64,000 nucleotides of DNA from Amphiura filiformis (Eukaryota > Echinodermata > Ophiuroidea > Amphilepidida > Amphiuridae): contig NC_092637.1 in the NCBI RefSeq assembly GCF_039555335.1, forward strand, positions 42,176,990 through 42,240,989. The letters are read 5' to 3'. Positions within the stretch are counted from its first letter, which is position 1, and every line of letters begins with the position of its first letter. A model generated the notes under the pieces. It was not told where the DNA came from. It was given only the letters and a program-made list of their open reading frames with translations, and did no database searches. The position numbers and the translations under genes are program-made. Shown here in pieces: positions 27,840 through 63,955 of the stretch.

Positions 27840-28266
27840 AGGCCTTATCCGGGTTTACGTTCCTTACCTGGGGCTAAGATGCCTTAACCTTAGCCGAATG
27901 CAGTGTAAGGTATCTAAACCCCAGATAGGGCGCCGTAACCCCAGATTAAGGGACATAGATCCCAGATAAAGCAGTCCAAACCCCAAATAAGGCGCATTAA
28001 CCCTAAATAAGAAGCATATACCCCCAGTAATGCATCTAAACCCCACGTAAGGTGCCTTAACTCTAGATAAGGGTCGTAACCCCAGATACGGCGCCTTAAA
28101 CCCAGATAAGAAACGTACACCCCAGTAAAGGCATCTAAACCCCAGTTAAGGCGCCTTAACTTCAGACGAGGGCCGTAAACCTAGGATAACACTGTCTGAA
28201 AACCCTCATCTGAAGTTGAGGCGCCTTCTGAGGTTTAGGTGTCTTATCTGGGGTTTAGATGCCTTA
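27840..28266. repeat. minisatellite, ~24-bp 'ccccagataaggcgcctta' units
   Basis: About 15 degenerate units, mostly in the 'ccccagataagg' orientation. The array is cut by the MITE at 28268 and resumes at 29424. Confidence 0.8.
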
Positions 28267-28267
28267 T

Positions 28268-29422: not shown

Positions 29423-29560
29423 ATCTGGGGTCAAGGCGCCTTATCTGGGGCTAAGGCGCCTTATCTGGGGTTTAGACTGCCTTATTTGGGGTTTACGTCT
29501 CTTATCTGGGGTTTATGTCTCTTATCTGGGGTTAAGACGCCTTATCTGGGGTTTATCTGG
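29423..29560. repeat. minisatellite continued after the MITE
   Basis: Six units of 'ggcgccttatctggggttta' type in the reverse sense to most units at 27.9-28.2 kb. Confidence 0.75.
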
Positions 29561-29872
29561 ACCCTATATAATTTTATAGCAATATGTAATTTTTTTATCA
29601 TGTTTGTGTTGGTAATAAATTATAGTTCTTGAAACCCTATAAGTATAAGTTGATCGCAAGTTCCGCAGATTGGTAGTTGCTGCCGTTTTATGCGTAAGGG
29701 GTCCATATCTGCCCCCCCCCCCCCGTTACCCTTCCGAAGATGGAAAGAGCATACGCCTAATCATAACCATGACCCTTAACTTATTCTAATTTTAACCCTA
29801 ATCCTACCCCTTCAATGACGTTTTACACATTCCGCGGGCATGCATGGTCACACGATTACAATATTTTTTCAG

Positions 29873-41323: not shown

Positions 41324-41419
41324 TTATTTATGTCCTTCGTGTGTGGTCATGGTAGCAGCAGATAAAAATGAATCGCCAACTTTCACACGAGATGACCTTT
41401 GTCTTAAGAACATCAGTAC
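41324..41419 (-). CDS. receptor C-terminal tail exon with stop
   Basis: 96 nt, phase 0, acceptor catatag. [20 protein letters not shown] then [11 protein letters not shown] and TAA. A basic patch follows TM7; the tail is short for the family. Confidence 0.87.
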   Translation of the reverse strand, partial: VLMFLRQRSSRVKVGDSFLSAATMTTHEGHK

Positions 41420-44400
41420 CTATATGCAGACAAAAAATAAATACAATAAGATTAACATTTTTAATGGTGATGTTTAATAGGTTCAAAATAATATTACATT
41501 GTGTCACCCCGATGATCACGTGAAATATAGGTGGACCACATTATGCATATATACATTGTGTGATTCGGATACTGTTCTCCAGTGTGCTAAGGTACAACGG
41601 TCCAAAAAAAGGGTTTGTATTAAGGGATCTGGAATGAGCGTTTTAAGCGTTTCGACAGTATTTTTTGTGGGACATTAGAGTACATCAGACATATCGAATT
41701 GCATTCTGAATACGAAGAATGTCCTTCTGATATCAAATAATTTTGATTTTTTGAAATTCGCAATATAATACACATTTTATGGCAAATGATTAAAAATGGA
41801 TATTTTTGATATTTAACAGTACTCGAAGTAAACTTTATAGATCTGATGATTTATACTTAAAGTGTATGTAGGTGGGATGAAAAGCCGACGATCAATTGAA
41901 AATTTTGACCTTTCGTATTGAAGATTCCCAAAACACCAAAAAAATTAGGTCTTTTTGGGAAAGAAATCCATATCTTCAATATGAAAGGTCAAAATTTTCA
42001 ATTGATCGTCGGCTTTTCCTCCCAGCTACATACACTTTAAGAATATCCCAGCAAACACAAAAGATCATTCGCAAAAGGTTATAAAAGGTTGTCAGAAAAC
42101 GTTTAAATGTCGGGTTATATAAAGGGTACATTAATGGTATAAAACCTTTTCATAACATTAAATAACATTTGTTGGTAATCTACTGCACAGCAAACACAAA
42201 TGTTTTACAGAAAACATTTAAATGTCGGGTTATATAAAGGGTATAAAAACGTTTTAATAACATTCCAAAAACATTTTTGAAAACTTGGTACAAATCATTC
42301 TAAACAGAATGTTATTTTGGGGTTGAAAAAATATTTTGCAAAAAATGTTTGCCCAAAATATTTACAATGACGTTTTTAAAATGTTTTCACGACCTTTATA
42401 TAACCCGACATTTAAATGTTATTAAAACGGTTTTAAAAAACATTTTAAGAACATTTCTGTGTTTGCTGGGTGCAAATATTTTAACATAATGTTATTTAAG
42501 TGTTGACAAAATATTTGGCCAAAAATGTTTGCAAAAATAGTTTACAATGACATTTCGAAAAGATTTTAAAAATATTGTTGCAGTGTGTTTTCATACAAAA
42601 CGTTTTAAAACGATTTCATGACCTTTATATAACCCGACATTTTAATGTTATTAAAACGTTTTTACCTAAACCAAAACCCAAAATATAACTTATTTAAAAC
42701 GTTTTAAAAACGTCGTTTCTGTGTTTGCTGGGATACCATTGGATTTATACAATTTACTTCGAGGACTGTTATATATCAAAAATGTGAAAAATATCAAATT
42801 TTAAAAATATGTCATAAAATGAAAATTATTTGATACCAGAAGGACATTCTTCGAATTAAGAATGCAATTCGATATGTCTGATGTGCTCTCATGTCCCACA
42901 AAAAATACTATCGAAACGCTCCTTCCAGATCCCTTAAGTATAGTCCGAAAATAAGGGTTCGCTAGCGGACCAGGGAACCTTAGGACTTGCGGACCAAACC
43001 ATATCTCCCCATGCATGTGATTCATCTCTTGTTTTAGGTACGTAATCATGTAATGCCTTAACTCACAAAGGATTCATTTGTGAGTTACGGCTTTCTGGTT
43101 CTCAACCCTCGATGTAGGCCTAATGACAACACGACTTTCATTATACAGCCATAAAGCTAAATGCCTACTTCACATGATTCATATCAGCCAATCAGGCTCT
43201 ACATCATCTGATTCATAAGTTTTATTTTATTTTATTTATAATATTCGGCTGAAACCAGGCAAAGTGCAATAGTGCTCAGAGGCTACTAAATTCAAGGGAT
43301 GCCAAGCAGACTTTACGGGACAGGGATATAGGGAAAGGTCCAATTTTAGACACAGGAGGAAAACCGGAGCACCCGGAGAAAAACCTGCGAGGACGAGCAT
43401 GGATCGGCAACCAAACTCACATGTGGCATCGGGGGGAGTTGAACCCGGACCGACCGCAGTGGTAAGAAGACCGCTACACTAAACCGTCCTCCCGCAAGTT
43501 GGGTGCCCATTAATATGAGGCCGAAATTACTGAGGGTGCCACCGCGCCGAAGTTATCGGGGTTCCCCGTTTCTAAACCACTGGGATTTAATCCGCCAATC
43601 AGAGCCTACGTGTGATTCAATCAGCCAATCAGGCCGGTCGCATTTTGAATCAATAATAGATATACTCACATCCTTATCCAGTAAGCATTGTCCAAAGAAA
43701 ATGAAGACACCCTGAGCAGAACAGATGAAGAGGTACAATAAGATGAACAGAAACAAAGCAAATAATATAATATATTATATGATTATTTGTTGCTGATTAA
43801 AACTAAATATAAGAGAAATAGAAATTATATTTTTTCCGGCCATACCAAAATAATCAGTTTGGATGTTTACTTAAAATCCTTTAAAAGAGAATTATTGATA
43901 GCTTTATTTAAAATGGAAGGGCGTACTTTGATTCGGGCAATCCTTTGTATGCTTTTCAGCTAACAAAAGATTACCCAAGTCAAAGCACGCCCTCTACTTT
44001 TGTGCCCGCCATATTTCAAAAAGGCGAACTACATTAATCTACATATGTGATGCGATCAAGCAAAATCAGTCGGAACACGGAAACATTAAATTTTCAGTTT
44101 CTTCTAGGATAGCAAGCATTTACAAAGCTGGATTTTGCAGAAAATCCCATTGAAATTGAACAACCAGTTTCAAAGATATGAACAATTAAAGAGTTTCCAA
44201 AACAACAAGAAACAAAAGGATATATTTCTTTTGCTTTGCTGTATAATCAAAATCAATATTTCCGAGTTCCGACTGATTTTGCTAGATCGCATCACATATA
44301 AGTTTTGATGTGGCACAGCGGGGTCTCGCACATAATTATCACTGCAAACTTATTGTTTTGATGTAGTCTTAAAATGGCTTACTATTTCCAAGTTTCTCCT

Positions 44401-47400
44401 TAAGGGATCTGGAATGAGCGTTTTGAGCTTTTCGACAGTATTTTTTGTGGAAGCATGAGAGCACATCAGACATATCGAATTGCATTTTGAATACGAAGAA
44501 CGTCTTTCTGATATCAAATAATTTTCATTTTTTGAAATTCACGATATAATACAAATTTTATGACAAATTATTAAAATTTGATATTTGTCACATTTGGATA
44601 TTATAACAGTCCTCGAAGTAAATTTTATAAATCTAATGATACATTCTTAAAGTGTATGTAGCTGGGAGGAAAAGCCGACGATCAATTGAAAATTTTGACC
44701 TTTCATATTGAAGATATGGATTTTTTCTCCCAAGACCTAATTTTGTTGGTGTTTTGGGGAAAAAATCCACATCTTCAATACGAAAGGTCAAAATTTTCAA
44801 TTGATCGTCGGCTTTTCATCCCATCTACATAAACTTTAAGTATAAATCATCAGATTTATAAAGTTTACTTGAGTACTGAATATCAAAAATATAAATTTTA
44901 ATCATTTGCCATAAAATGTGTATTACATTGCGAATTTCAAAAAATCAAAATTATTTGATATCAGAAAGACATTCTTCGTATTCAGAATACAATTCGATAT
45001 GTCTGCCCTAACGTTCGTACCACACCCCTTCAGAGGAATCAGATAGCAACGTTTGCACAGTATTTTTGTGGGACTAGCTACTCGATTCGTATCGTTACCT
45101 GTAGTCCATTGCAGATCGTAAACAAATAAGAGAAAACAATACTGGACGTCTGATCAAATTGCAGAACACCAAATATCCACGTGCCGCCGAGAAGAGGTAT
45201 CAGAATTACAATTGCCCGAACACTGGCTCTAAAGATCACGATAAGTATAATGTACATTATTTACAAAAGTTCTGGTGTACAAATCCAAAAGTATTTCGGT
45301 ATAAAGATGTTAAACATACCTCGATGACGTTTCGTTCTACATCGTAGTACTTTCTCAAATCGACTGATCAATTCTCACACTCCTCGACTGTTTCCTGTTG
45401 GAACTCGACATTGGCGGCGTTTTGGAGGAAACAGACGAGGAGTGTGAGAGTTGATCAGTCAATTTGAGAAAGTACTACGATGTAGTACGAAACATCATTG
45501 GTATACAGTAGAGAAATATCCCAATTCACAACTATTTGGACTATTTATTAAGCTAATTAAAGACATACAGTCATGTTTTGGCTATGACCTTTAAAAAAAT
45601 TTTAATCCCGACCGACTGACCCAATTCTGAAAAAGTTGTGGAGGACAAGCAAACAATTTTTTTGGCCTAAATGTAGACCGCTTTGGTACATGTGCACATG
45701 TGAAAAGCGCTGTATAAATACCAACATTTATTTTCTTAAATTTTATAATGATAATAATGATGATGGGAGTTTTCCTCTATAAAATTAATTTAAGATAAAT
45801 AAATAATTTTATACTTACTTAATCCTTGCCAAATCTGATTTATCCTTATTGGTCTTTAGAGATAAATATTTGTAGATAATTATTACCAAGAAGATCATAT
45901 TAACCTAGAAAAAGAAACATAATTTTACTTATCAAAATTTTACGACGGAATAAACTGCTCACAAAAAGTATCGTTACACTTGAAAGTGTCGACGTGTTTT
46001 AAAAATTAAAAGAAGAGTATTTAGCAAATTAATAAACTCGGTGTGTGCACCATTTTATCTCGTTGAAAAAAGTTACAAGCATTTGAATGGTAAAGAGTCG
46101 GATTTCATAAGTTGCCGTATCCCCTATACACAGAATCCAGCTCAGGCGGCGGATGACATGATCGAGCCGGCAACTTGTGAAACCGCCCGGCCGTATAGCA
46201 TTTTCCAATATACTCGGTTAGTTTTCGGTTAGAATTTAAAATTCATACTCCCCCTCATGCATCCAGCGAATTTATTAATGTGCTCAATACACTTTTGGTT
46301 AAATTTTTAAAAACTGACGTGTAACAATACTTTTTTGTGAGCAGTTTAGTTGTCATATGTGAGAGGATACTGAAACAAGGTGTCACCATAATATGCTCAG
46401 CAAAAAATACTCTGTACAAAATTTATTTGACCAACACTACTAAAATAATACCAATGTTATCGTAATTGGCTTAAATTCGGCGTTTTTTTTTTTTTTTTGT
46501 AAACGTTTAACTATGTAATTCAATTTTTACAACTTACAACTGTTATAGCCAGCGCCGGTGCGATAAATGCATATACGATGCCATGTTCAATTGGTAACCA
46601 GCAGCTGCACAAGAAACATGTTAATGTGTTTAGTATTCTCTGCGAAAAAAGTCCCATTTATAATTATTTACCAGGAAAGTATTGTAAACGTAACTAAGGG
46701 GTCGTAGCCAGGGACCCCAATTGTCAAAAAAGTAAACTATTCGCCGTAGAAGTGATGTAACAGTATTAACTACAATAGCAATAGGTGAAAACAATTTTTG
46801 AATATATCGCACTGCACTAGTACGTTCACGCGGTACCACTGGACAATGCTGGATTGCACCAAAGATATCAAAGAACAAGGATAAATACCCGGATCGTAAT
46901 TCTATAGAATATTCATATCATACTGATCACTCGCACCTGTAAGATTAGTATCCTTGAAAAGAGCGGTATTATATTCAATCTATGATTGTAGACATACACA
47001 GATGATGAGTGCAACCTGCTTGTAATGCAGGGCGATATATTAAAAAATGCTATGGTAGTTAATGCTAAAAAGTATTAAAGAATGTCCAAATTAGAAAGAA
47101 AAAATAAGAAAAGGGTCACTTTTCTAATGTTCAAATTAGCCCGAAAAGTGTGTATTTTTAGGGATAGTAAGTCCACTTTTTCATGTAAGCAAATTTATTT
47201 TGGAAAAATCTACATTTTGCACGTTTTGGAAATTCCGCACACCTTTCCCCGCAAAATATCCTGGCTACGGGCTTACTAACCGTCTTCCCCAAGAATACGC
47301 ATGTTTAAGTTTGGAAAACTAATTCTTGTATGGTATTTTCTTTAGAGGTGGGCTATGAACGTTTGGACAGTATTTATTGTGGGACATTAGAGCAAATCAG

Positions 47401-50400
47401 ACATATCGAATTGCATTCTGAATACGAAGAATGTCCTTCTGATATCAAATAACTTTGATTTTTTGAAATTCGCAGTGTAATATACATTTTATGGCAAATG
47501 ATTAAAAATTGATATTTTTGATATTTAACAGTACTCGAAGTAAACTTTATAAATCTGATGATTTATACTTAAAGTGCATGTAAGTGGGATGAAAAGTCGA
47601 CGATCAATTGAAAATTTTGACCTTCCGTATTGAAGATATGGATTTTTTCCCCAAAACACCAAAAAATTTGGTCTTTTTTTTTGTCATTAGATTTATAAAA
47701 TTTCAAATATCAAAAAATTTGTATTATATCGTGAATTTCAAAAAATGAAAATTATTTGAAATCAGAAAAACATTCTTCGTATTCAGAAAGCAATTCGATA
47801 TGTCTGATGTGCTCTCATGTCCCACAAAAATACTGTAGAAACGCTCAAAACGCTCATTCCAGATCCCTTAAGATTGTACATGTATATGCTATTTAACGTC
47901 AAGCTGTGTCGATACCTACTTTGAATCGTCGATGGCATATTCCGTGATCCCCATTCCTAGTGTCACGGAAACAATGATCGCCGGCAGTCCTGAAAAAATG
48001 GTTATATGAAAAACTTGAAAGGTGGCAGTACACCAGAGGTCTTCAAACAAAGTAGGATTGCTTTAACTCTTTAAAAGGGCATTTCGTGATCCACAGCCTC
48101 ATCCCCCACTTTTCTCAAAAAAGTTGAGATTTTTATATCACTGGAAACCTCTGGCTACATAATGTTTATGTACAAAATATTTCTTGCAGATTAATTCCTT
48201 TAGCAAAGATATCGTGAAATTTGAATTTCGTTCTGGTGCACCAGAACGAAATTACAACGTATTGTCTATGGAGCAGTGTAATACACATAATCATGCATAA
48301 CTCGCAAACGCAATATCGGAATCAACTGAAATTTTGGGAATATGCTTTTTTCGTGGATATGTACTGAAAAATGTCATAAAAAGAGGATGCTAGGATCACG
48401 AAATACTCCTTTAATAAGCATTACTTTAACAACTTTTAACGAGGATTGAATCCTATCAGCAACTGAAGAATAATAATCGCCACTTAAACCTTCGCCCTAC
48501 ATCACGGTTGTTTGATGTAATCATTTATTAAATTTTCTAACAAAACATAATATTCAATTCTAAAACTATCACACTAATATTTACATACATTTCCCGCTCC
48601 TTTTAACATAGATTTTCGTTTCTTTATCAATTTATTCATCTTTTTCTGCTTTTTTTAGGTATTATTATTCTATAAACTGTATATTTGTGTACAAATTGAG
48701 GGCGCTATTTACATATATTTTAAATTTAATTTGGCCAAATAATATAAGTTATTCCTAACATTTCATAAAAAGTTTTTTTAAATTTTCATTGCTACTTGTT
48801 ACTCTTTTTCTGACGTTTTATTGCAATTATACCAGCTAGTGTCTACCCCTTGTAAAGATGAAAACACGATTTAAGATCAATAGCGCCACCATTGTTCACC
48901 TTTTCTTAAAAATAATGTGGTTTTACATGCTATCAAACAACCGTAACATAAACCTAATTTCGTACTTGTACTTGTGCCGTCCACACCAACAGTGAGCTGT
49001 GTGATGGATTATCTTCCGTAATGTCATGCCATCAGTCTGTCTCTGTTGGTTGTAAGCCTGCTATGTCTGCCAGGGTTTGTTTATAATATTGGTCAACTCC
49101 ATTGGAAATCCATACACCCCCCTATGGAAGACATAACCTTAATATACACCCCTAGTGTGGGACATTGATGTCATGTCTTCCATATATAGGTGGTGTATGG
49201 ATTTAACCAGGATCTGTGATTTAACTGTAATAGCCCACCTCTTGCTTGCCACACTTGCTTTTACACATTCCAACCATCTTTTGTTTGATCTTCCTCAGCT
49301 CTTGGGCTTTTTCGATGTGTTTTGCTTCATGAGTTATTTTGTGTATCTACTTAACCATAATCACGACCCTAAATCTAGAATCTTACCCCAAGCGATGGGT
49401 GCACAGATCTTCAGTTTCATCTTCCGCGTGATACTCGGGTTAACTTTAAGATACAGATGTATTCCTTCTACGAACATCCACATGAAAACCACCAACCACA
49501 GATAATGTAGTAATACAGTCACCGTAATGCAGGCAATCTGTGTGAATATTGCAAGAATTGCTTCACGTGTCTTTATTATTATATTTAATTTACCGTATCA
49601 ATTTCCGCACATTCCTCCACCACACACTCACCCACCCCCCTCTTGTATGAGTCCAACCCCATACACCCCACCTAACTGCACACCCTACAAATTCACATCC
49701 CTATCCACATAGGTACGGTACGCAATATTCGCTCCATACACGTGGGCACGAATACTTCAGTATAAACTTTTCAAGAAATTTTCTACCCTTGTAAGTTTTC
49801 CTTGCTCCGGATTTCTCTATTTGTACTATACAAAAGCAATCGTTTGGCTTCAAAAAGACAGACAGACAAAACCCTAAAAAACAATTAACAATAAAGACCC
49901 CCCTACACACACTCGCACAATTATTGAGTAATGACTGTATGTTAAAAAAAAAAGGAGCTCCAGTTGGCTGTACAATTTCTACAGCACTTTATAAACTAAA
50001 GAACAACATACAGAGGTAAACACGAATAACTGTTTCAGTCACCTTTGGTTTAGCGTTGATGCCAGTGACAAATACAAGTTGTGCCAGTAACAATGACAGA
50101 GCTAAGTTTGTATGGATACCAATAACTGCTTCACTCACCTTTTGTTTAACGTTAATGCCGGTGACAAATACAAGTTGTGCCAGTAACAATGACAGAGCTA
50201 AGTTTGTATGAATACCAATAACTGCTTCACTCACCTTTGGTTTAGCATTAATGCCGGTGACAAATACAAGTTGTGCCAGTAACAATGACAGAGCTAAGTT
50301 TGTATGAATACCAATAACTGCTTCACTCACCTTTGGTTTAGCATTAATGCCGGTGACAAATACAAGTTGTGCCAGTAACAATGACAGAGCTAAGTTTGTA

Positions 50401-53400
50401 TGGATACCAATTCGAACATTCTTGTATAGTCTGTGAAAGGAATACGTATAAGCTTTATTTAGATGTATAATAGACGGCTTTAAAACTCAACCGCCGGTTC
50501 CGCCCGGTCCCGTCTGGTCGGAGCCGGTTTCTATAAACAATGGAACGAAGTTCAACGGCCATCAACCGCCGGTCAACTGCCCAGATAACATGGTGATATT
50601 GGTCCGATGGTGGCCCAATATCATTTGCTCATGGGCCCAAGACTGGTCCAAGATTGGGCTTGGGCCAAATATTGGGCCTATATTGGACCAATTTAGGCTG
50701 CCACCGTGATGCCAATATGAAGATTACCGATGGTAAGCCAAGATTGGCCCAATATTGGCAGCAAAAAATGCCGATGCCAAGATTGGCGTTCGAAAACCAA
50801 CGTTGGGCCAATATATGCATGTTATCTGGGTTGTGGTTGAGTTTTGAAGCCGCCCCTAATTTAATTTGCATAATTTTCCTGCAAATGCCGTCATGGTTTT
50901 GTGAGGATCAATCGTGTGATATATACTGATTGCAGCGGATCCTTTCCTGGATGTATAATTGTAGTCACTGTGACTACAAAGATAAATAAAAAGAAAATGC
51001 TGTATTGTATCATGTACAATAATACAATTAACAAAGAAAAACAATGAGGTTCTTGCTTAGATTTGAAATTATTTTATTCCTTTTGTGTTTTCTTCTTCTG
51101 TATTCTACTCTTTGTATTCTTCTTCGTTTTCTCTTCTTCTTCTTCTTCTTCTTCTTCTTCTTCTCTTTACTCCTTCTCACGTTTATGTCGTTTTCTTCAT
51201 TTTCCTCTTCCATATCAAACATTATTGCAGTACCGATCAGCAGAACAAATTATTTCCTGCCATAATTTCAAAAACGGCATAAAGGATGGGAAATGTCGAA
51301 GGAACTAGAGAAAAGTGTACACGCACAATCAAATCAGTAATAATAACCTTTTTAATGCAATGGGCGTACAAGTACTTACTTGGAAACTGCATACAATATG
51401 ATCGTCGCAAGCAGACACACTATCGACATGGACATGGATATGTAGGTCAAATATGACAGGATCTTGACATGAACACTCGGTAATTCTTCAACCTAACGAA
51501 GTTAAAAACACTATTATCAATAAACACGGTATTTAATCGAAAGTGTTTGACGCACTGTCCTTATAGTTACTTGTAACTTCGACTCGATCCTTTCAATTTT
51601 AACCAATCCTTCTTGATAGCTCTAATTCCTGAGGTGTATGACCAAGATGGCGAATCAGTTACTTCACATGACCTTGGTAGTCCAGCTTTCCAGAAAGTGA
51701 CATTTTTCGAGTTTCGTCAAATGAGTTATTACCCACTTTTCAGCTGGAACTATAGCAACATAATTATCATGAATTATTTTCGGGCTCGGTCACCCACCTT
51801 TGCAGAGTATTTTTGGTGGGACATGAGAGCACATCAGACGCACCAAGTTGCATTCTAAATACGGGGAATGTCCTTCTGATATCAAATAATTTGGGATTTT
51901 TAAAATTAGTGATATAATACAAATTTTATGGCAAATTATTAAAAAATTTACATTTATGACATTCATAAGGGAAATTAATTAGGAAACTTCATGTATATCT
52001 TCAATACGAAAGGTCAACACTTTCATGTGATGGTCGGCTTATCATCCCAGCCACACACACATAGCATTAGATTTATCAAATCTACCTAGTCTTCTTGAGG
52101 ATTGTTAAATATCGAAAATGTCAATTTACAATAATGTCAAATTTGCCATAAAATTATATCGCGAATTTCACAAATATTTGATCGTATCGTACATGGTAAA
52201 CACTTATAAATTTTATAATGCTTCAAATTCTAGTCTTATACAATTAATAACTTTCATATCAGAACATACTTCGACTAGTTGCATAAGAACCGCAAAGCTG
52301 GTCATGTGATTACAGCCGCAAGTCACGTGAGTCTCAGTTAAGTCGGTGACCGCACACCCTTCGTCAGACCAAGTTCTATATAACCAGTAATTAAAAACGA
52401 AAAACGTTGGTAACAAAACAGGAACTATGGTTTAGTTAAATGTATTATTCAGCCAAAATACTACAAAAAAATGTGTTTATTTTCTTCAGACGTGTGTTTT
52501 GTTTATTTTTTCGATACAAAAAATAGGACATTTTGACATATTGAGCAGTGGCGTAACTAGGGGGGGGGGGGCGGCAAGGTGCCCGGGCGCTACCACTGAG
52601 GGGGCGCCAAATCGCCAAATCATAATGCCGATGCCATTCCCACACCACCGCGTCTAAGATATTCTCGGGTGGGGGTAGGGGTGCCAATTTTGTTTCTTGC
52701 CCCGGGCGCTACCAACCCTAGTTACGCCACTGATATTGAGCCAGCCAAGTTTCGTCATTTGTTTGTTTGTGTTTACTCTGCGAGTTGTGTTGTAATTGCA
52801 AATTAATACATAATTATACGTTTATTAAACAAACATATCGCTTACCCAGTTGACGTTACATATTGACATGTTGGTGCCCCTTGGTGCGCCTGACAATAAA
52901 ATACAATTACAACAAGTAATTGCAGTTTTGCACTAAAACACACGACTCTTGACTATGGTGTCAATGTTTAAATAACTTTAAAACATTTTTTTAAACATAT
53001 CCGTACGTTTACACGGTTAACCGACCGGATTGTGGTCCGTTTAAACGGAATAACTGACACCCATACAGTGACAACCGTGGTATCAAAACACTTGTTCAAA
53101 TAACTTACCGATAACAATAAGAATGTAATATAGAACAGATCCCCATTGTTATAAGAAACGGCTTGCTTGTTAGAAATATCATAGATATTAATCGCCGTCA
53201 CCTTGCTGCCCATTCCAGAATACACTCGATTTGTGTCAGAATCATTCTTCACAGGGAGATTTAATTTGAGAACAGAAATAACTACCGCGTGATCTGAAGA
53301 TTAAGAAGTGAAATGAGACCCAAATAGATAAAATAAGGTCAAGAAAGGGTAACACAAAGACTACTGCTGTTAAATACATTTGACACAACCTCACTGCCCT

Positions 53401-56400: not shown

Positions 56401-56714
56401 CTACCCACAAATCCATTCCGTCTTCTCCTTCATATTCATACGTATAGATTTACTAATATGCCATTTAAAACATTTAGGTTCTCTCAATTTTTCGGACTAT
56501 TTATGGTTTGCTTTTTGTTTTACCTGTGCACTGCCACCCATCGCCGGTATAGCTTGCATTACATGAGCAGTTAAAACCCGGAATCTGATTATGACAAGTT
56601 GCTCCTACATGGCAATTGTGGGTACCTTCGGCACACTCATCAACATCTGCAAATTTAATATGTATCATTGTCATGTTTTCAACTTTATCATCATCATCGT
56701 CGTCGTCGTCATCG

Positions 56715-56786
<72 letters not shown>

Positions 56787-56987
56787 CAACGTCCATCAGT
56801 TATGGTTTCTTCTTATTTACCTGTACATTGCCATCCATCGCCGGTATAGCCTGCATCACATGAGCAGTTAAAACCTGGAACCTGATTATAACAAGTTGCT
56901 CCACTATGACAATTGTGGGTACCTTCCGAACACTCATCAACATCTGTAAATTTAATATGATATCGTTGTCATGGTTCAAACCTTAGT

Positions 56988-57038
<51 letters not shown>

Positions 57039-60000
57039 GTCATCACAACGTCCATCAGTTATGGTTTCTTCTTATTTACCTGTACATTGCCATCCATCGC
57101 CGGTATATCCTGCATCACATGAGCAGTTAAAACCTGGAACCTGATTGTGGCAGGTTGCTCCAACATGACAATTGTGGGTACCTTCCAAACACTCATCAAC
57201 ATCTGCAAATGTAATGATATTGTTATCGCCATGATTATCAACTTTATTATCATCGACATCGCATCATCTCCATCACCATCATTATTATTATTATCATCAT
57301 CATCATCATCATCCTTATAATAATAACTTAATGAAATGGGAATAAAAGTACAATCATCTTTCAATTACTTTTAATCGATCCGAACAAAATGATACTTATC
57401 ACACGGCAATCTCACCTGTGCATGTTTGTCCGTTCCCTGTGTACCCCGCGTTACAAGTACACTTAAATGACCCGACGGTATTAGTGCAATCAGCATTGAC
57501 GTCACAGCTATCAGTATTCGAACTACACTCATCCAAATCTGATGAAAAATATTTATATTGAAATTAATCAATGAATTTATTTCATTTGTCATCCTCGTTA
57601 CTTTTACTTTTATCCGCTACTGGTGCCTTTCATAGCATCATGGGGAGACATATCCTTCTTCTCTGGGCAAATCGGGTCATTGTGATCCCATGTCTTGCGA
57701 GTATTTCCTTTATTCCATCTGCCAACCTCTTCTTACTCTTCCTCTTGCCCTAGTTCCTGTTGTACGGCTGTTGTAAGTTCTTGCTGCAGGTTGGCTAAGG
57801 AACACGCGCATAAGGTGGCCGAACCACCTTACTTGGTGTTTTGCTACGTAGGTGCCCACCATCTTTCTGATACCCTCGCTGCTCTTGATTTCCCTCTTGA
57901 CTTGTTAGCCGCTCTTCTTATAATTAAAGACAGAGATAAATGCAATTTATCGCGTCTGATGTCACTGTCAATTACGATCCTTGATTGGTTTACACATGTT
58001 AATCAGCGCGCACAAGGAAGGCCGATCTCTCTGGTGCTGATCGGAGAAAAGGAATAGCAGCAAATCGCGAAAAAGTTCGTACTTTTACAAGGCAAAAGCA
58101 GCTTTTCTAGGGATTGTGGACATGGTGCCTTCACCAAAGAAAGTTTCTTACTATAAAGCCCTAACTTTTGAGATGGTTTGCATGTCGAAAGGTGCAAAAT
58201 CAACAATAAGGCGCCCGGTTATAAATCCGCGTTCAGCAAGTCATCATCACGACACTTGTAAACAAACCGTGCTCGAGTTTGATTGACAGGTGACGTCAGA
58301 CGCGATAAATTGTCTTTATCTTTGTCTTTCATTATAGGCATCTCATTTTACAGGTAATGGGCTTTGGGGTTGTTCTTTTATTGAGAGTCCAGGTTTTGGA
58401 CTGGTAGCAGAGTGAAAAAGGGGCTATTTGCCTCTTTTCTTTTCCTCTAGATTTTCTCTTTCATTTTTTGTTAGAGGGGCACTTTTTTCTTTCATTTTTT
58501 TGTCAGGGGGCACTCTGCCCCCACCCTTGTAGTCTCAATGGTTTGGAAACTGCCATGAAAACGCAGACATTTAGCCTAAATGTTTTCTGGTAACATTATG
58601 TGCATCCATTTAATAATGTTATAAAAAACATTTTGGGTTATCTGGAGTATCATAATTATTATAAGTACGATGTGGGTTGACATACCAGTGCATGTTATAC
58701 CATCTCCACTATATCCGTCATTACATGCACATGTGAAGGCACCAGCAGTATTTAAACATGAAGCACCAGCATGACAGTTGTGTTTACCGGAACTACACTC
58801 GTCAATATCTATCCACAATAAAATAATGTAATTTATATTGAACAATAATGTCAGTTATGCTATTCACTCATATATACATTATGCACACTAAAACAACAAT
58901 TTATACAATTTGTGTAGATCCATTTTCTATCAGTTTCTATTGATCACGGGGAATCTTTCGTGGAGCTGTTTTCAACATAGGCCTATTTATTATCACACTC
59001 GCGTGAAAATTCAATAGCAGCTACAACGGCGATGTCGACTCTGGAGTCAAAAATTTGACTGCCAAGAGTAACCGCTGGCGGCGCATCGTATTGTGAAACG
59101 CGAGAATTATGAGGGAGCTTTTTTATTTTACTGCGTAGGGTAAAATATTGAGATAAATAACACTTCATCAAGTTACGGGTGAAATTTGAAATGTTAATAC
59201 CGTAACAATTTTACTAATTATGAAGATCACGTGAAATTGTCATGTGATCTAATAAATATTAAAAGAAGTAACACTTCATAAAATTACGAATGAAATTTGA
59301 TGTTTTGAGACAGTAAACCTTTTACTAGTTTAGATCCCCGTATTTTGTCGTCATAGATTAATTTTGACGTACGTCTGATTATAGAAGATCACGTGGAAAT
59401 GTCATTTTGAACTAGTTTTTGAATTAGCAATAAATCGCGTCTTCGATTACTACTTTACCTTTTCAGAAACATCCAAAATTATGATATGCCAACAGAAAAC
59501 GAGTCAACAGCCTTTTTCTATAATCTACCGAGCTGACAACTGATAAAAACAAAATTTATAACTAGGACATATCTCACCTGTGCATGTTTGTCCGTTTCCT
59601 GTGTAGCCCGCGTCACACGTACACGCAAATGACCCATTGACATTAGTACATGCAGCAACAGCGTCACAGTTATCAGTTCCCAAAGTACATTCATCCAAAT
59701 CTAATGCAAAACATTATAATCAGGTTATGGTGCGTGTTTTTTTGTTTTTGTTTTTGTTTTTTTTTGTTGTTTTTTGTTGTTGTTTTGTTGTTGTTGTTGT
59801 GTTTTTGTTTTTTGTTTTTTGACAACCTATCACTCTCGCATACATAAGCTCGCACAGGTAAACCCTCAATGTTAAGAACTCTTTTAAAGAACTATATACC
59901 GATAATAATTATTACATCATAAAAGTAATTCTATGTTTGTTTGTTTGTTTGTTTGTTTGTTTGTTTGAATCACTTAATTTGAACCAGAGTAAAATATTAT

Positions 60001-63000
60001 ACTTAAATTGTAAAATAATAAATAGTGTGTGGAGAATTACCTATGCATGTTACTCCGTCTCCATTATAACCGTCAATACATGCACATGTGAAGGAACCAG
60101 CAGTATTGGTACATGTAGCAGTAGTATGACAGTTATGTGTACCGTCGGAACACTCGTCATTATCTATGCAAAATATCATCATACTTATAAACTGTTGTAA
60201 GGTTTGCTTTTCAATAACAAATTTAAATTATAGAACAATGATTATTGACTCTATGTAATGTAAAACTTAATATTACGATAAACTCCGATATATAAACTGG
60301 TTATTTCAGTTGGTGGTATTTTCTTTGTTCTTTATAAAATAAACCATTCAGGAACGCAGCTCTGCACAGGTACAGCTGAGGTCCCTTGTCCAAGAGAATT
60401 CCAAGTTGGCTCAATGTTTTGTTGCAAACAAACTATCTGTGTGGCCTCGAACACGTATCGTTACACACACGGTAAGTCATGTCCAAAGGAGACACTTTTG
60501 GGCAGGTTATCAATTTTAAGGGTTTTACATATCTTAATAGAGATATTTTGCTCCACAACGCCGTTTTTTCCAATGAATTCCTGAGCGAAGATATTGAAAT
60601 CGTAAGTTATGGTATCATAAAATTTGAAATTGAGATATCGGTGCAGATATTGTGCAGATCACCGTCCCGCACGCCATGTACGTACTGTGTTATGAACTTG
60701 CGTATGCGTTCAACTAATATTTCCATCGTAATAATAAAACGACGGTTCCTGCGTTTTATTTAAAATCTCGGATTTACCTGTGCATGTCACTCCATCTCCA
60801 CTAAAACCGTCATTGCATGCACACGTGAAGGAACCAGGTATATTGGCACATGTGGCAACAGTATGACAGTGAGTATTGGTACTACATTCGTCAAGATCTA
60901 AGTAAAATATCAAAATATAATATTATTCATAATTAAAGGGCAATTACGTATGGATTTCTCTTTCAAGTATTACATTGATGATAACAACTACTATTATAAT
61001 GATGACATATGGTAACCATAACTGTACTATGTGATAATTTCAAAAACAGTTTTGAGTTTTATTAATCATATAGTGATCTATCATTTCAAGCCATATTATA
61101 ACATTTGCTGAGGAGGACGCTCTCAATATTTGTCAAAATTCTGTTTTTTACGTGATTATATTGTACTAAACCAACAAAATACCCTGCAAATATCAAGACC
61201 ATAGGTACTGTAGTTTTGTCAAAGCCCCATGTACATACAGCGTCAGTTAAAACTTGCGCAGTACCAAAACCCGAAAAATTCTCGCCTATTACGATGATTA
61301 TAAGCTGACTATAGTATAACACCATTCCCATTTGACCAGTTTAATTATTTTCTGCGCTATAATGGATCAGAGGAGTAGGCCTTACCTGTGCATGTGTGTC
61401 CGTTACCCGAGTAGCCGGCACTACAATAGCACGTATATGACCCCATAGTATTAGAGCAACCAGCATTGATATCACAGGTAGCAATACTCGAAGTACATTC
61501 ATTTAAATCTAAGACAAACACAATTAATTCATGCAATTTAATCGAATTATTTGATGTTTTGTTTTTTAGTGTTTCTTTCTTCAAGTTCTTTTTTTTTTTT
61601 TTTTCATGTATTTTTTCTAAAATCGACATAATAATATGTAATTATTATTTCCAATAAAACTATTTCGCGCCATGACCGTACGTCGTCATTTTTCAATATT
61701 AGGTGTAAAAAGTTCTTTGTACGGCCACGTGATGAATTAACACTCAAATCAATATTACGGTAAGTCGAAAATTTAACATCATTTGTATCAATCCACTTTC
61801 ATTTTACATGATTTTTTGTTCCGATTTGTATGAAGCACGCACATTATATCTTTGCTAATACCATAAGTTAAAATATACCTGTGCATGTTACTCCGTCTCC
61901 ATTATAACCGTCATTACATGCACATGTGAAGGAGCCAGCGGTATTGGTACATGTAGCAGTGTCATGACAGTTGTGTGTACCGTCGGAACACTCGTCATTG
62001 TCTATGCAAAATACCAAAGAAACAAATGCAATTGTCAGAAGTTTGTTTAAAGGTTACAAAGTAGAACTGGCGGTACAAATCGTTATTCTTATGTTGTTTG
62101 TTTATTTTTGTTGTTTTCTTTTAATGACAAGGCTAATCAAGGCAAGCAGTTATCTATTGGGCAATGCTGACAGGTTGGCGCCAAGATAGCGGTTTACCTC
62201 ACACTTGCAGCTCTGTATATCCTGGTTATACTTTTTTTTTCATGTTTCTTTTTCTAAAATCGACATTATATACTATTATTATATTTCCAATAAAACTATT
62301 TCTCGCAAGGAACGTAAGTCATCGTGTTTCAATGATAATTGTGTAAAAAGTCTTATGGAACTACGACGCGATGAATTATATGCTCTCAAGTCAGTATTTC
62401 GGTAAGGGTAAACTTTGCATCCATCCAATTTCATTATAGGTCTACATGATATAGGCTGACATTTAGATTTTCTGAATTGAGTATACTATGCTCCAATTCA
62501 GAGGAGGCTTAAAGGCGTTCCTACAATGCACTATGATTGGGAAATTTGATCAATATAACCTAATCTTAAAGGCAAAGTCCCCATTACCACACACACAAAA
62601 TGGTAATTTTAAAATTGCAACGAGCTAATAAGACTTATCAAATTAAATTGGATTTTCTTATAGAAAACATTCTTAATGTCCCACTGCATAAATTTTATTC
62701 ATAAGTCTCAATGTTTTAAATGTTAAATAAAAGGATGAAAACGCCAGATATTTACACACAGTCCCAATGCAAGGTATGGTCCACTGTGCCACACGTGTAC
62801 AAAAGCCAGACATACCAATGTCAGAAACCCCATTGGGTTATGGGAATGTCTTTATACATCCTCTGGCTCCGATTTCTATGAAGCACGCACATAATATCTT
62901 AGCTAATACCATAAGTTAAAATATACCTGCGCATGTTACTCCGTCTCCATTATAACCGCCATTACATGCACATGTGAAAGAGCCAGCGGTATTGGTACAA

Positions 63001-63955
63001 GTAGCAGTATCATGACAGTTGCGTGTACCGTCGGTACACTCGTCATTGTCTATGCAAAATACCAAAGAAACAAATGCAATTGTCAGAAGTTTGTTTAAAG
63101 ATTACAAAGTAGAACTGGCAGTACAAATCGTTATTGTTTGTTTATTTTTGTTGTTTTCTTTTAATGTCAAGGCTAATCAAGGCAAGCAGTTATCTATTGG
63201 GTAATGCTGACAGGTTGGCGCCAAGATAGCGGTTACCTTACACTTGAAGCTCTGTATATCCTGGTTGAAAACATGGCATTCTATATGCCGGCTGAATATG
63301 GGAGAAATGATCTCTTGTGAAAGTTAACTGTAAAATTTCACAGAAAGGTTACAGGAGCACCGAAGGTGTGCATCAACTGTATGACGCTCTTGTAGTACCA
63401 GGGGGCAGTAGCTGGCCTAACAAATATAGTGCTTAACTAACCATAGAACATCCGACAGCAAATGATGCTTTATTTAATATGGAACATTGAACCGGAGGCT
63501 GGAATCAAATGTTTTATTCCAAAATGTATAAAATAATATTCATCATTTTCAAGAAACTTAAAAAATTACACCATAACCACCACAAAAGGGCTCCGATTCA
63601 ATGTCCTCCTCATCCGGTATTTGTTCAGAAAAGCAAAAATAATTAGTAATGTCTCACAGGGGCATAGCAAGCGGGTGGACAGGGTGGACGAAGTCCAGGA
63701 CCACGGGAGTCAGGGGCCCCGAACAAAAGCAAAAATGAAATACGGGTGGTGATAAAGGAGATGTTAAAAGGGTCCAGTACTGCTCCTTGACCATGGGTCC
63801 CCGAAGCTCTTGCTACACCCCTAGTGTCTCACCTGTGCATGTTTGTCCGTTCCCTGTGTACCCCGCGTTACACGTACACGTAAATGACCCGACGGTATTA
63901 GCACAAACAGCATTGACGTCACAGTTATCAGTATTCAAACTACACTCATCCAAAT
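41324..63955 (-). CDS. EGF-repeat adhesion G-protein-coupled receptor (EMR/ADGRL4-like), 27 exons, 5' end outside the window
   Basis: Twenty-seven exons join to 3113 nt (about 1037 residues) with agreeing phases and GT-AG introns. Domains in order: 12 six-cysteine EGF repeats with calcium signature DxDEC or DxNEC (residues ~1-491); a compact GAIN domain (~492-752) ending in a GPS; TM1-7 (~760-1005); a 31-residue tail ending THEGHK. The GPS reads CQYV..GTWSDEGC...CGCNHMTSF with the HM|T self-cleavage site intact (~residue 742). The TM block has the class B2 marks: EGIHLYL after TM3, IAWG in TM4, CWLPIEHG before TM5, [10 protein letters not shown] in TM6 and GVFIFFGQC in TM7. Such receptors sit at the surface, self-cleave at the GPS and signal through G proteins after contact with cell or matrix ligands; the ligand is unknown. 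GAIN is short for the family, so a small exon may be missing. The TM2 exon is followed by in-frame repeats. Confidence 0.93.
41624..42933. mobile_element. hairpin MITE copy C, interrupted by a second MITE
   Basis: TTAA at 41620-41623 and 42934-42937; the ends GGGATCTGGAATGAGCG and its inverse match the family. The right arm is split by the element at 42047-42732. It lies in the last receptor intron. Confidence 0.8.
42047..42732. mobile_element. ~690-bp MITE with CCCAGCAAACACA ends, nested in copy C
   Basis: Ends CCCAGCAAACACA and TGTGTTTGCTGGG, each flanked by AT. The interior alternates 'aaacgttttaaaacg' and 'acatttaaatgtcgggttat' words in both directions. Taking the insert out with one AT restores the arm length of the host MITE. 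Confidence 0.8.
43225..43498 (-). repeat. tRNA-headed SINE, copy 2
   Basis: Shares the 'caggaggaaaaccggag', 'acccggagaaaaacctgcga' and 'gacgagcatgga' core words with 32560-32950. The minus-strand head has a B-box-like GGTTCAACTCC. It stops about 170 bp from the TM7 micro-exon. Confidence 0.7.
43670..43711 (-). CDS. receptor TM7 micro-exon
   Basis: 42 nt, phase 0 to 0, acceptor tgctcag, donor GGAT|gtgagt. [14 protein letters not shown] completes helix 7 (NGLQ-GVFIF). Confidence 0.9.
44043..44301. mobile_element. ~260-bp MITE
   Basis: The inverted ends 'atatgtgatgcgatcaagca' and 'aaatcagtcgga' are mirrored at 44270-44301. The interior resembles 16131-16320 inside the MITE at 15.6 kb. Confidence 0.65.
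44404..45029. mobile_element. hairpin MITE copy D
   Basis: TTAA precedes GGGATCTGGAATGAGCG at 44404. Two full arms meet near 44745; the right tip lost ~40 bp and its TTAA. It ends about 70 bp from the TM6 exon. Confidence 0.75.
45099..45228 (-). CDS. receptor TM6 and start of TM7 exon
   Basis: 130 nt, phase 2 to 0, acceptor tctttag, donor CTACAG|gtaacg. [20 protein letters not shown] then GVLQF and [15 protein letters not shown]. The PLLG.TW.FG core is a hallmark of adhesion receptors. Confidence 0.93.
45318..45500. repeat. 180-bp foldback in the receptor intron
   Basis: 'gtagtactttctcaaat' and 'cacactcctcg' on the left are mirrored at 45440-45485, with a ~40-bp loop. Confidence 0.7.
45819..45904 (-). 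CDS. receptor TM5 end and intracellular loop 3 exon
   Basis: 86 nt, phase 0 to 2, acceptor ttctag, donor ATTAA|gtaagt. [20 protein letters not shown] then DKSDLARI, a basic loop expected to meet the G protein. Confidence 0.9.
45905..46490. other. intron between TM5 exons, nothing recognised
   Basis: AT-rich with a T run at 46483-46498. No repeat family or exon identified. Confidence 0.4.
46538..46604 (-). CDS. receptor extracellular loop 2 and TM5 exon
   Basis: 67 nt, phase 2 to 0, acceptor ttgtgcag, donor GTT|gtaagt. [20 protein letters not shown] then ITV. The CW pair is the disulfide partner of the TM3 cysteine. Confidence 0.9.
46737..47062. mobile_element. MITE copy 2 of the 27239-27551 family
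   Basis: 'attcgccgtagaagtgatgt' and 'aacaatttttgaatatatcg' on the left, 'gcgatatattaaaaaatgct' on the right. The outer right tip is missing. Confidence 0.65.
47345..47867. mobile_element. hairpin MITE copy E
   Basis: Both arms are present; the right end 'ctcattccagatccc' is followed by TTAA at 47868-47871. The left tip is diverged. It lies 53 bp from the TM4 exon donor. Confidence 0.7.
47920..47989 (-). CDS. receptor TM4 exon
   Basis: 70 nt, phase 1 to 2, acceptor tttcag, donor TCAAA|gtaggt. [20 protein letters not shown] then DDS. A later GT would add an in-frame TAG, so the first was chosen. Confidence 0.88.
48072..48414. mobile_element. ~340-bp MITE with 'atttcgtgatcc' ends
   Basis: 'ttaaaagggcatttcgtgat' on the left and 'atcacgaaatactcctttaa' on the right are inverted. 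A central palindrome 'ttcgttctggtgcaccagaa' lies at 48228-48247. Confidence 0.65.
48498..48950. repeat. possible ~450-bp MITE
   Basis: 'acggttgtttgatgtaatca' at 48502 resembles the inverse of 'catgctatcaaacaaccgta' at 48948. The arms are short and diverged. Confidence 0.4.
48951..49386. other. intron before TM4, nothing recognised
   Basis: The plus-strand frame at 49155-49505 is antisense to the TM3 exon. 'tacacccccctatggaagac' and its near inverse mark a short inverted repeat at 49110-49200. Confidence 0.4.
49387..49537 (-). CDS. receptor TM3 to early TM4 exon
   Basis: 151 nt, phase 0 to 1, acceptor cacacag, donor TGGG|gtaaga. [20 protein letters not shown] then [13 protein letters not shown] (helix 3 with the conserved Cys), then [10 protein letters not shown] opening helix 4. 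Confidence 0.92.
50043..50330 (-). repeat. three extra 96-bp in-frame copies of the TM2 exon 3' part
   Basis: Copies end at 50235, 50139 and 50043, exactly 96 bp apart. Each reads [20 protein letters not shown], then [12 protein letters not shown] or a close variant, with no stop from the true acceptor through all four. Each end carries a donor-like gtgagt (the last is gtgact). The 'gaagcag' words between copies are not usable in-frame acceptors after TM1. Confidence 0.9.
50331..50430 (-). CDS. receptor TM2 exon (shortest form)
   Basis: 100 nt, phase 2 to 0, acceptor tttcacag, donor CCAAAG|gtgagt. [20 protein letters not shown] then [13 protein letters not shown], helix 2. The donor and the exon body are repeated three more times downstream at 96-bp steps (see 50043-50330). 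Confidence 0.88.
50475..50855. mobile_element. nested small foldbacks next to the TM2 exon
   Basis: Outer pair: 'ggctttaaaactcaaccgcc' near 50474 and its near-inverse at 50835-50855. Inner MITE 50581-50832 has ends CCCAGATAACATG and CATGTTATCTGGG and many 'attgggcc' words. Confidence 0.6.
51128..51166 (+). repeat. (TTC)n microsatellite
   Basis: About 12 TTC units in a pyrimidine-rich stretch. The poly-Phe, poly-Ser and poly-Lys frames here are artefacts. Confidence 0.95.
51380..51492 (-). CDS. receptor TM1 exon
   Basis: 113 nt, phase 0 to 2, acceptor cgttag, donor TCCAA|gtaagt. [20 protein letters not shown] then [18 protein letters not shown], helix 1. Confidence 0.9.
51786..52200. mobile_element. 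hairpin MITE copy F, decayed
   Basis: 'tgggacatgagagcacatca' and 'aatgtccttctgatatcaaa' match the left arm of copies A-E; the right arm is mostly eroded. Confidence 0.6.
52270..52375 (-). CDS. receptor GPS exon (self-cleavage site)
   Basis: 106 nt, phase 2 to 0, acceptor ggttatatag, donor GTCGAA|gtatgt. [19 protein letters not shown] then [16 protein letters not shown]. Cleavage is expected between Met and Thr, and the residues after it form the tethered agonist. The frame reads on upstream through intron, so the acceptor was placed by GPS spacing. Confidence 0.9.
52546..52732. mobile_element. 187-bp hAT-type MITE with perfect 8-bp target duplication
   Basis: Ends CAGTGGCGTAACTAGG and CCTAGTTACGCCACTG are inverted. 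ATATTGAG occurs directly on both sides (52538-52545 and 52733-52740), the hallmark of hAT insertion. The interior is G/C-rich. Confidence 0.9.
52846..52889 (-). CDS. receptor micro-exon opening the GPS
   Basis: 44 nt, phase 0 to 2. [14 protein letters not shown] supplies the first GPS cysteine. It is linked to the next exon by phase and by the C-x-Y-V..G-x-W spacing of GPS motifs. Confidence 0.8.
53109..53293 (-). CDS. receptor GAIN exon 4
   Basis: 185 nt, phase 1 to 0, acceptor tcttcag, donor TCG|gtaagt. [20 protein letters not shown] ... [20 protein letters not shown] ... [14 protein letters not shown] subdomain B strands. Confidence 0.87.
53294..54196. other. receptor intron, nothing recognised
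   Basis: AT-rich. A weak inverted pair 'tagggcatggacct' (53772) and 'aggtccatgctcta' (53919) is visible, plus TAAT-rich words at 53945-54000. Confidence 0.4.
54197..54319 (-). CDS. receptor GAIN exon 3
   Basis: 123 nt, phase 1 to 1, acceptor catttcag, donor TTTG|gtaact. [20 protein letters not shown] followed by [15 protein letters not shown], the first beta strands. Confidence 0.83.
54855..55148. mobile_element. ~290-bp foldback MITE
   Basis: 'ggaagttacgtttt' with 'aggtgactgattca' on the left is mirrored by 'tgaatcagtcacct' and 'aaacgtaagttcc' on the right. The arms meet at the 'cagaaaggaattgat' pair. Confidence 0.7.
55255..55335 (+). repeat. (CCTTT)n-like pyrimidine repeat
   Basis: Repeated 'ctttcctttcc' words, 55 bp from the GAIN exon 2 donor side. 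Confidence 0.9.
55390..55501 (-). CDS. receptor GAIN exon 2
   Basis: 112 nt, phase 0 to 1, acceptor catttag, donor TTTTG|gtaagt. [20 protein letters not shown] then [17 protein letters not shown], helical subdomain A. Confidence 0.85.
55502..56086. other. receptor intron, nothing recognised
   Basis: AT-rich; no exon or inverted repeat found, although the short GAIN domain makes this a place where a missed exon could lie. Confidence 0.35.
56087..56301 (-). CDS. receptor linker and GAIN subdomain A exon
   Basis: 215 nt, phase 1 to 0, acceptor cgattag, donor GATCAG|gtgag. A Ser/Thr/Asp-rich linker ([18 protein letters not shown]) leads into [20 protein letters not shown], a helix expected at the start of GAIN. 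Confidence 0.8.
56524..56646 (-). CDS. receptor EGF exon 12
   Basis: 123 nt, phase 1-1. [18 protein letters not shown]...[12 protein letters not shown]. Last EGF repeat before the GAIN domain. Confidence 0.92.
56694..56787 (+). repeat. (ATC)n microsatellite between EGF exons 12 and 11
   Basis: About 30 ATC/GTC units. The same microsatellite sits in the next two introns (56986-57046 and 57265-57320), marking a duplicated exon-intron unit. Confidence 0.95.
56821..56943 (-). CDS. receptor EGF exon 11
   Basis: 123 nt, phase 1-1. [18 protein letters not shown]...[12 protein letters not shown]. Middle member of the triplicate; the intron to exon 10 is only 136 bp. Confidence 0.92.
56986..57046 (+). 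repeat. (ATC)n microsatellite between EGF exons 11 and 10
   Basis: About 19 ATC units, flanked by the same words ('catcacaacgtccatcagtt') as the tract at 56694. Confidence 0.95.
57080..57202 (-). CDS. receptor EGF exon 10
   Basis: 123 nt, phase 1-1. [18 protein letters not shown]...[12 protein letters not shown]. First of three near-identical exons separated by (ATC)n introns. Confidence 0.92.
57416..57538 (-). CDS. receptor EGF exon 9
   Basis: 123 nt, phase 1-1. [18 protein letters not shown]...[12 protein letters not shown]. Near-copy of exon 1, 6.4 kb away. Confidence 0.92.
57923..58337. mobile_element. ~415-bp MITE in the receptor intron
   Basis: 'aaagacagagataaatgcaa' and 'tttatcgcgtctgatgtcac' at the left are mirrored at 58288-58337. 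Confidence 0.7.
58686..58808 (-). CDS. receptor EGF exon 8
   Basis: 123 nt, phase 1-1. [18 protein letters not shown]...[12 protein letters not shown]. Donor ACTG|gtatg. Confidence 0.92.
59160..59430 (+). repeat. two diverged direct repeats
   Basis: 'taacacttcatcaagttacg' (59158) and 'taacacttcataaaattacg' (59270) each precede a 'gaagatcacgtg' word ~70-115 bp later. Confidence 0.45.
59578..59700 (-). CDS. receptor EGF exon 7
   Basis: 123 nt, phase 1-1. [18 protein letters not shown]...[12 protein letters not shown]. Same subtype as exons 1 and 9. Confidence 0.92.
59735..59822 (+). repeat. T-rich (TTTTTG)n and (TTG)n tract
   Basis: Low-complexity sequence about 35 bp upstream of EGF exon 7 on the coding strand. 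Confidence 0.9.
59934..59967 (+). repeat. (TTTG)n microsatellite
   Basis: Eight TTTG units. Confidence 0.95.
60041..60163 (-). CDS. receptor EGF exon 6
   Basis: 123 nt, phase 1-1. [18 protein letters not shown]...[12 protein letters not shown]. An older relative of exons 2 and 3. Confidence 0.92.
60476..60660. mobile_element. partial copy of the 6477-6907 MITE
   Basis: 'catgtccaaaggagacactt' and 'ttgggcaggttatcaatttt' match one end of that MITE (inverse of 6720-6900) for about 180 bp. The other end is absent. Confidence 0.75.
60778..60897 (-). CDS. receptor EGF exon 5
   Basis: 120 nt, one codon shorter than the others between cysteines 1 and 2. [17 protein letters not shown]...[12 protein letters not shown]. 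All six cysteines present. Confidence 0.92.
61386..61508 (-). CDS. receptor EGF exon 4
   Basis: 123 nt, phase 1-1. [18 protein letters not shown]...[12 protein letters not shown]. The usual Phe of the hydroxylation pattern is Tyr here. Six cysteines. Confidence 0.92.
61879..62001 (-). CDS. receptor EGF exon 3
   Basis: 123 nt, phase 1-1. [18 protein letters not shown]...[12 protein letters not shown]. Donor gtatat; acceptor tgcatag. Six cysteines. Confidence 0.92.
62228..62868. other. receptor intron between duplicated EGF units, nothing recognised
   Basis: AT-rich sequence; no exon or inverted repeat seen. Confidence 0.4.
62927..63049 (-). CDS. receptor EGF exon 2
   Basis: 123 nt, phase 1-1. 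[18 protein letters not shown]...[12 protein letters not shown]. Tandem twin of the exon at 61879-62001, introns included. It differs by T-R for S-H and by N-G for N-D. Confidence 0.92.
63268..63832. other. receptor intron with repeat scraps
   Basis: 'caggggcatagcaag' at 63658 and 'cttgctacacccctag' at 63809 form a short inverted pair around a G-rich stretch, probably a ~165-bp hAT-like MITE. The rest is unremarkable. Confidence 0.45.
63833..63955 (-). CDS. receptor EGF exon 1 of 12 in the window
   Basis: 123 nt, phase 1-1. [18 protein letters not shown]...[12 protein letters not shown]: six cysteines, calcium-binding start, C-x-N-x4-F-x-C hydroxylation pattern. It is almost the same as the exon at 57416-57538 at DNA level. 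More N-terminal exons must lie beyond the window. Confidence 0.92.

Follow-up and report, generated by a model that had tools for sequence, protein, structure and literature searches.

Four in-frame copies of a TM2 exon end and its splice donor in an adhesion GPCR gene of Amphiura filiformis

Results

The receptor gene and the array at its TM2 exon

We analyzed 64,000 nucleotides of Amphiura filiformis DNA (NCBI RefSeq assembly GCF_039555335.1, contig NC_092637.1, positions 42,176,990 to 42,240,989 of the forward strand), here called the window and numbered from its first letter. The minus strand carries an EGF-rich adhesion G protein-coupled receptor (GPCR) gene, and in the 3' half of this gene the end of the exon for the second transmembrane helix (TM2) is repeated in tandem together with the adjoining splice donor. 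An earlier reading, made from the letters alone (the sequence-only reading), had described this array as a TM2 helix exon present four times in frame.

The gene was modeled over 12 exons (53293-41324), from two exons upstream of the main GPS exon, which we label the probable GAIN region, to the stop codon. The reading frame is intact throughout, 11/11 introns are GT-AG, and the single stop is terminal. Splicing at the first of the four donors (donor 1) gives a protein with a GPS motif (Pfam GPS, E 8.2e-12) ahead of a 7tm_2 domain (E 7.6e-47), the arrangement of an adhesion GPCR, and with seven hydropathy peaks after the GPS in an uninterrupted frame, as in a seven-helix receptor. Its closest PDB matches are ADGRD1 (2.9e-60) and ADGRL3 (7.2e-58). 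Thus, the receptor identity proposed from the letters stands. The GPS exon encodes HMTSF, which we take to be the cleavage site. We place the start of the TM3 exon at 49537 (ttcttgcaatattcacacag/ATTGCC, the slash marking the splice boundary), where the product is collinear with ADGRL3 GINRTDQPIACAVFAALLHFF with a one-residue gap; a candidate acceptor upstream of it (aataataaag/ACACG) was rejected, with a score of -6.38 that lies under all 24 modeled acceptors. Twelve EGF exons were assigned to the same gene, which probably extends past the end of the window, with its start presumably outside. A tblastn search with the donor-1 protein (E <=1) found no paralogous 7TM copies in the window, only the protein's own exons and the array.

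Tandem Repeats Finder (TRF) places the array at 50025-50411 with a period of 96, 4.0 copies, 96% matches, and a score of 704; none of 20 random 64-kb sequences generated under a first-order Markov model scored above 64. Aligned in register, the array consists of four gapless 96-bp copies (50408-50025, minus strand), with 8 variable columns, zero indels, and pairwise differences of 1 to 7 of 96 (Table 1). One open reading frame (ORF), 50486-49992, spans all four copies. TRF, alignment, and ORF together confirm every copy end that had been read from the letters, as well as a 32-codon unit free of stops. The description of a repeated exon needs refinement: the four copies are indeed in frame, but each unit consists of 78 nt from the end of the TM2 exon and 18 nt of intron, and in this register the 22 nt with which the exon opens (50430-50409) fall outside it. 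It is a partial-exon-plus-donor duplication. The exonic gaATTGG and the intronic gttATTcg have an ATT in common, which suggests where the duplication joint may lie.

Local alignment of the doubled unit against dinucleotide shuffles found no decayed fifth copy beyond 50025. The best score was 20 in the remaining intron (50024-49538; matched by 93/500 shuffles) and 15 in the first 60 nt past the array (181/500), while scores in the upstream intron were matched by 292/500 and 302/500 shuffles. The best downstream-intron stretch, GTGAAGCAATTCTTG near the TM3 acceptor, resembles GTGAAGCAGTTATTG of the unit (22/500 over the last 120 nt), and we take it as chance. Given just the 129-residue array ORF and no alignment, AlphaFold2 produced a model with helices at H2-30, H32-62, H64-93, and H97-125; with a pLDDT of 60.6 and a pTM of 0.40, it was discarded as evidence.

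Table 1. Features of the receptor gene and its TM2 array (window positions)
Feature	Position	Strand	Basis or remark
12 EGF exons, assigned to the same gene	56528..63950	-	EGF_3 stretches 5+2+5 in three frames; 12 pattern matches
GPS exon, HMTSF at expected cleavage site	52270..52375	-	Pfam GPS
TM1 exon	51380..51492	-	Gene model
TM2 exon with donor 1, 100 nt	50331..50430	-	Acceptor tattcctttcacag/ACTATA; donor AAAG/gtgagt; Pfam 7tm_2
Copy 1, 78 nt exon + 18 nt including donor 1	50313..50408	-	Donor after 50331 (last exon base)
Copy 2	50217..50312	-	Donor 2 after 50235; 1 difference vs copy 1
Copy 3	50121..50216	-	Donor 3 after 50139; 4 differences vs copy 1; A to V, P to Q
Copy 4	50025..50120	-	Weaker donor 4 (GTGACT) after 50043, score 5.10 vs 8.68; 5 differences vs copy 1
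TM3 exon	49387..49537	-	Acceptor cacacag/ATTGCC; fit to ADGRL3
TM4 to C-terminus, six exons	41324..47989	-	Stop codon 41326-41324

Splice signals in the array

Copies 1-3 share the donor context AAAG/GTGAGT and copy 4 has AAAG/GTGACT, which bears out the earlier count of three gtgagt and one gtgact at 96-bp spacing. Donors 1, 2, and 3 are identical over the 12 nt compared. Three identical donors and one weaker donor, 96 nt apart, would follow from the duplication because the duplicated segment holds the donor site. We scored the donors against a profile built from 22 further donors in the gene (10 from the modeled 3' part and 12 from EGF exons, several of them mutual duplicates). Donors 1-3 score 8.68 and donor 4 scores 5.10; the leave-one-out range of the 22 is -0.79 to 11.83, with 11/22 below 8.68 and 4/22 below 5.10. 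Donors 1-3 are therefore mid-range, and donor 4 is weak yet inside the range of real donors. On a human donor profile, the scores are 11.94 for donors 1-3, 8.20 for donor 4, and 5.62-11.63 for the other 22 donors. The octamer AGGTGAGT has four minus-strand occurrences in the window, three in the array and one at 56088, where by eye it resembles the donor of an exon outside the model.

The internal gaagcag-type acceptors had been set aside in the sequence-only reading as out of phase, and they do appear unsuitable: they score -0.95 to -2.67, under all 24 modeled acceptors (0.22-11.87), and 6/6 tested pairings with a downstream donor run into a stop. The remaining AG sites in the array score lower than these.

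The closest precedent is polyubiquitin UBC, in which dual-specific AGGT splice sites lie at the unit boundaries of a tandem array; the unit length is divisible by 3, and splicing can therefore vary the number of units in frame (PMC10809524). Its monomer number is stochastic, with no evidence of regulation. Dual-specific introns are reported to be 8.4-fold enriched in tandem repeat genes, and dual-specific sites to be weaker than single-use sites. Since the receptor array likewise has AAAGGTGA at each boundary and a unit length divisible by 3, its AG/GT boundaries might be dual-specific; whole 96-nt units would then be spliced out like short introns, and chance would set how many remain in a message. 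We consider this very unlikely. Scored as acceptors, the four sites reach only -8.0 to -10.0, compared with 0.22 to 11.87 for the 24 modeled acceptors, and plain donor choice would be enough for the same product range: in contrast to UBC, the array here straddles a genuine exon-intron boundary and has its own acceptor further downstream. The UBC repeat also differs in being a soluble domain, the repeat here being a membrane helix.

Reading frame and divergence of the copies

All four donor choices lead to the same stop codon in frame, with 395, 427, 459, and 491 residues in the modeled part; thus, donors 2, 3, and 4 do keep the frame into the TM3 exon, as claimed from the letters. Full intron retention gives 17 residues beyond donor 4 and then a stop. 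The three-copy protein also matches 7tm_2 (2.9e-48, two stretches), which is uninformative on function.

Openness and frame are not supported as signs of function. They are unsurprising because the unit is four-fifths exon: 26/32 unit codons are exon codons, open whenever the period is divisible by 3. For comparison, we placed every possible unit on the 11 modeled exon ends, allowing lengths of 60-150 nt and intron shares of 9-45 nt and requiring a minimum of 20 nt from the exon. Among these comparable units, which overlap heavily so that the figure serves as a yardstick and not as a formal test, 3907/23654 (16.5%) are in frame and open; at a period that is a multiple of 3, the count is 3907/8029 (48.7%). 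The openness of the array is weak evidence of function.

These frequencies fit an explanation in which copies 2-4 are a purely intronic minisatellite, donor 1 is always used, and the openness stems from youth and exon origin. The low divergence marks the array as young, donor-1 splicing gives a family-like TM2-TM3 length, and introns built of tandem 24-nt repeats have been published from fission yeast (PMC3629103). However, with donors 2 and 3 matching donor 1 over 12 nt, nothing marks donor 1 out, and we judge a purely intronic array to be possible, if on the unlikely side.

Copies 1 and 2 differ by a single base, which would be in keeping with a copy number in error through false expansion or the joining of two alleles during assembly. 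Such an error is highly improbable in our view: copies 3 and 4 carry private changes (two and four columns, respectively), and joined alleles would hardly yield four in-register copies.

The 8 variable columns comprise 4 synonymous and 4 residue-changing changes (P 0.124-0.234 over the whole unit). In the exon-derived part, 4/6 changes are synonymous (P 0.044, 0.066, and 0.096 at transition/transversion weights of 1, 2, and 4), and in the intron-derived part both changes alter residues. The comparison of synonymous with non-synonymous differences, proposed earlier as a check on the copies, thus points to a weak synonymous excess in the exon-derived part that fades over the unit as a whole. Even there, the signal need not imply translated extra copies because copy 1 is under constraint as an exon, and its changes could pass to the other copies by exchange. 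Columns 5 and 65 present all four combinations (a four-gamete pattern); together with the low divergence, this suggests youth and exchange between copies. That donors 2 and 3 have stayed constant was rejected as a sign of selection, since we estimate that an unchanged 9-nt donor is likely anyway with so few changes.

Predicted effects of donor choice on topology

TM2 of GPCRs runs from inside to outside. Reasoning from parity, and assuming that every copy inserts, one or three extra copies would invert TM3-TM7, whereas two extra copies would form a hairpin and keep the orientation. By the same parity, donors 1 and 3 would be topology-conserving and donors 2 and 4 inverting, so the topology change foreseen in the sequence-only reading would apply to donors 2 and 4 and not to donor 3. 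Hydropathy per extra copy is 1.82, inside the native seven-helix range (1.72-2.71). We see no sign in the sequence of topology-driven pruning of donors, because donor 2 has the same sequence as the topology-conserving donors and the weakening is confined to donor 4.

Topology is central to another explanation, a functional switch in which graded, regulated donor choice would yield 7, 8, 9, or 10 helices, with parity toggling the orientation. Such a switch would agree with four donor choices that are all in frame, with extra copies as hydrophobic as native helices, with the synonymous share of the exon-derived changes, whose P value depends on transition bias as given above, and with the published eight-helix adhesion GPCR ADGRG7 (PMC11039983). 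On the other hand, the synonymous share drops to 4/8 when all variable columns are counted, the two intron-derived changes are both residue-altering, and the receptor-inverting donor 2 does not differ from donors 1 and 3. Altogether, a switch seems improbable, and regulation of donor choice is unsupported. Which of several competing donors wins depends on factors such as SRSF1, reported to activate intron-proximal donors, and hnRNP A1, reported to activate intron-distal donors (PMC5585400).

Other duplications and repeats in the window

Within the receptor gene, an EGF exon and flanking intron have been recently duplicated (61820-62227 and 62868-63266, 93.9% over 408 nt). At 56501-57324, an EGF exon and its intron occur three times in tandem as units of roughly 259-300 nt, separated by ATC/GAT microsatellites and about 82% alike (552 nt at 81.9%). 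An interspersed repeat with copies 80-91% alike occurs in four introns of the gene (41648-41956, 44424-44736, 47356-47678, and 51796-51963).

Elsewhere in the window, a 168-169-nt repeat forms two tandem pairs opposite in orientation (30647-30959 and 31798-32105). The pairs are 94-96% complementary, their longest arms lie 885 nt apart, and they have the look of a mobile element's repeated termini. Minisatellites of 20-nt units, e.g., ATCTGGGGTTAAGGCGCCTT, are found at 27979-28268 and 29423-29577, their relatedness being judged by eye. On the minus strand at 4202-4775, overlapping ORFs of 143 and 83 aa had no Pfam match at E 0.1; they could be pieces of a decayed gene. No Rfam families at gathering score and no tRNA were detected in the window.

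Discussion

On balance, we lean toward a young, mostly neutral duplication with competing donors and some in-frame extra-helix messages. In a working adhesion GPCR gene, the 78-nt end of the TM2 exon and the 18-nt start of its intron would have been recently duplicated in tandem, and unequal exchange would have amplified the unit to four copies. The gene is prone to local duplication, and the TM2 array is another such event, one that took in a donor without an acceptor. Splicing at donor 1 would give the canonical seven-helix receptor, while part of the pre-mRNAs would be spliced at donors 2-4, giving in-frame messages with one to three extra TM2 helices. Mixed donor use is the default expectation because the donors show no sequence feature that would confine splicing to donor 1. 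Extra-helix isoforms are plausible, and they would be mostly unregulated by-products. It is unlikely that donors 1-4 are all used appreciably, giving 7, 8, 9, and 10 helices with the even forms inverted and a copy number that varies between individuals.

Several points weigh against a mostly neutral array with competing donors. In mouse, the 7TM part is reported as the most splicing-stable part of adhesion GPCR genes, with significant splice variants there in only 11.1% of the genes studied (PMC6667449), which also counts against a regulated switch. Donors 1-3 are mid-range on the gene's own profile. Decay of donors 2 and 3 would be expected if the additional isoforms carried a cost, yet both persist; the array may simply be too young for this. 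Finally, the 4/6 synonymous changes in the exon-derived part lean slightly toward constraint on the copies, and the four-gamete pattern could be explained by recurrent C/T change.

Apart from UBC, three known systems resemble the receptor array in part. Intron gain by AGGT-type tandem genomic duplication (PMC4974935, PMC3629103) also involves intragenic tandem copies with a splice-site motif and possible sites in each copy; here, however, no new acceptor or intron is evident, and the duplicated segment already had a real donor. ADGRG7/GPR128, also an adhesion GPCR, has transcript variants that differ in helix number and topology (PMC11039983), but its extra helix is N-terminal, ahead of the 7TM, whereas the array copies would sit inside it. 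The splice variants of EMR2 and CD97 vary the number of repeat units in EGF-bearing adhesion GPCRs (PMC6667449), in extracellular EGF domains and with no transmembrane helix involved. Each element has been published: splice-site arrays in tandem, duplication as a route to intron gain, and an adhesion GPCR with eight helices. Among the titles and abstract openings listed in searches of open-access literature, which covers few subscription journals, none describes a core GPCR helix repeated in tandem and in frame with every copy bringing its own donor.

If the downstream donors are used, this one locus would test, through splicing, how a receptor tolerates odd and even helix insertions, and it would also show how choice falls among identical competing donors. 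If they are unused, the locus would still be informative, as a clear example in nature of how donor 1 is preferred over identical sites downstream.

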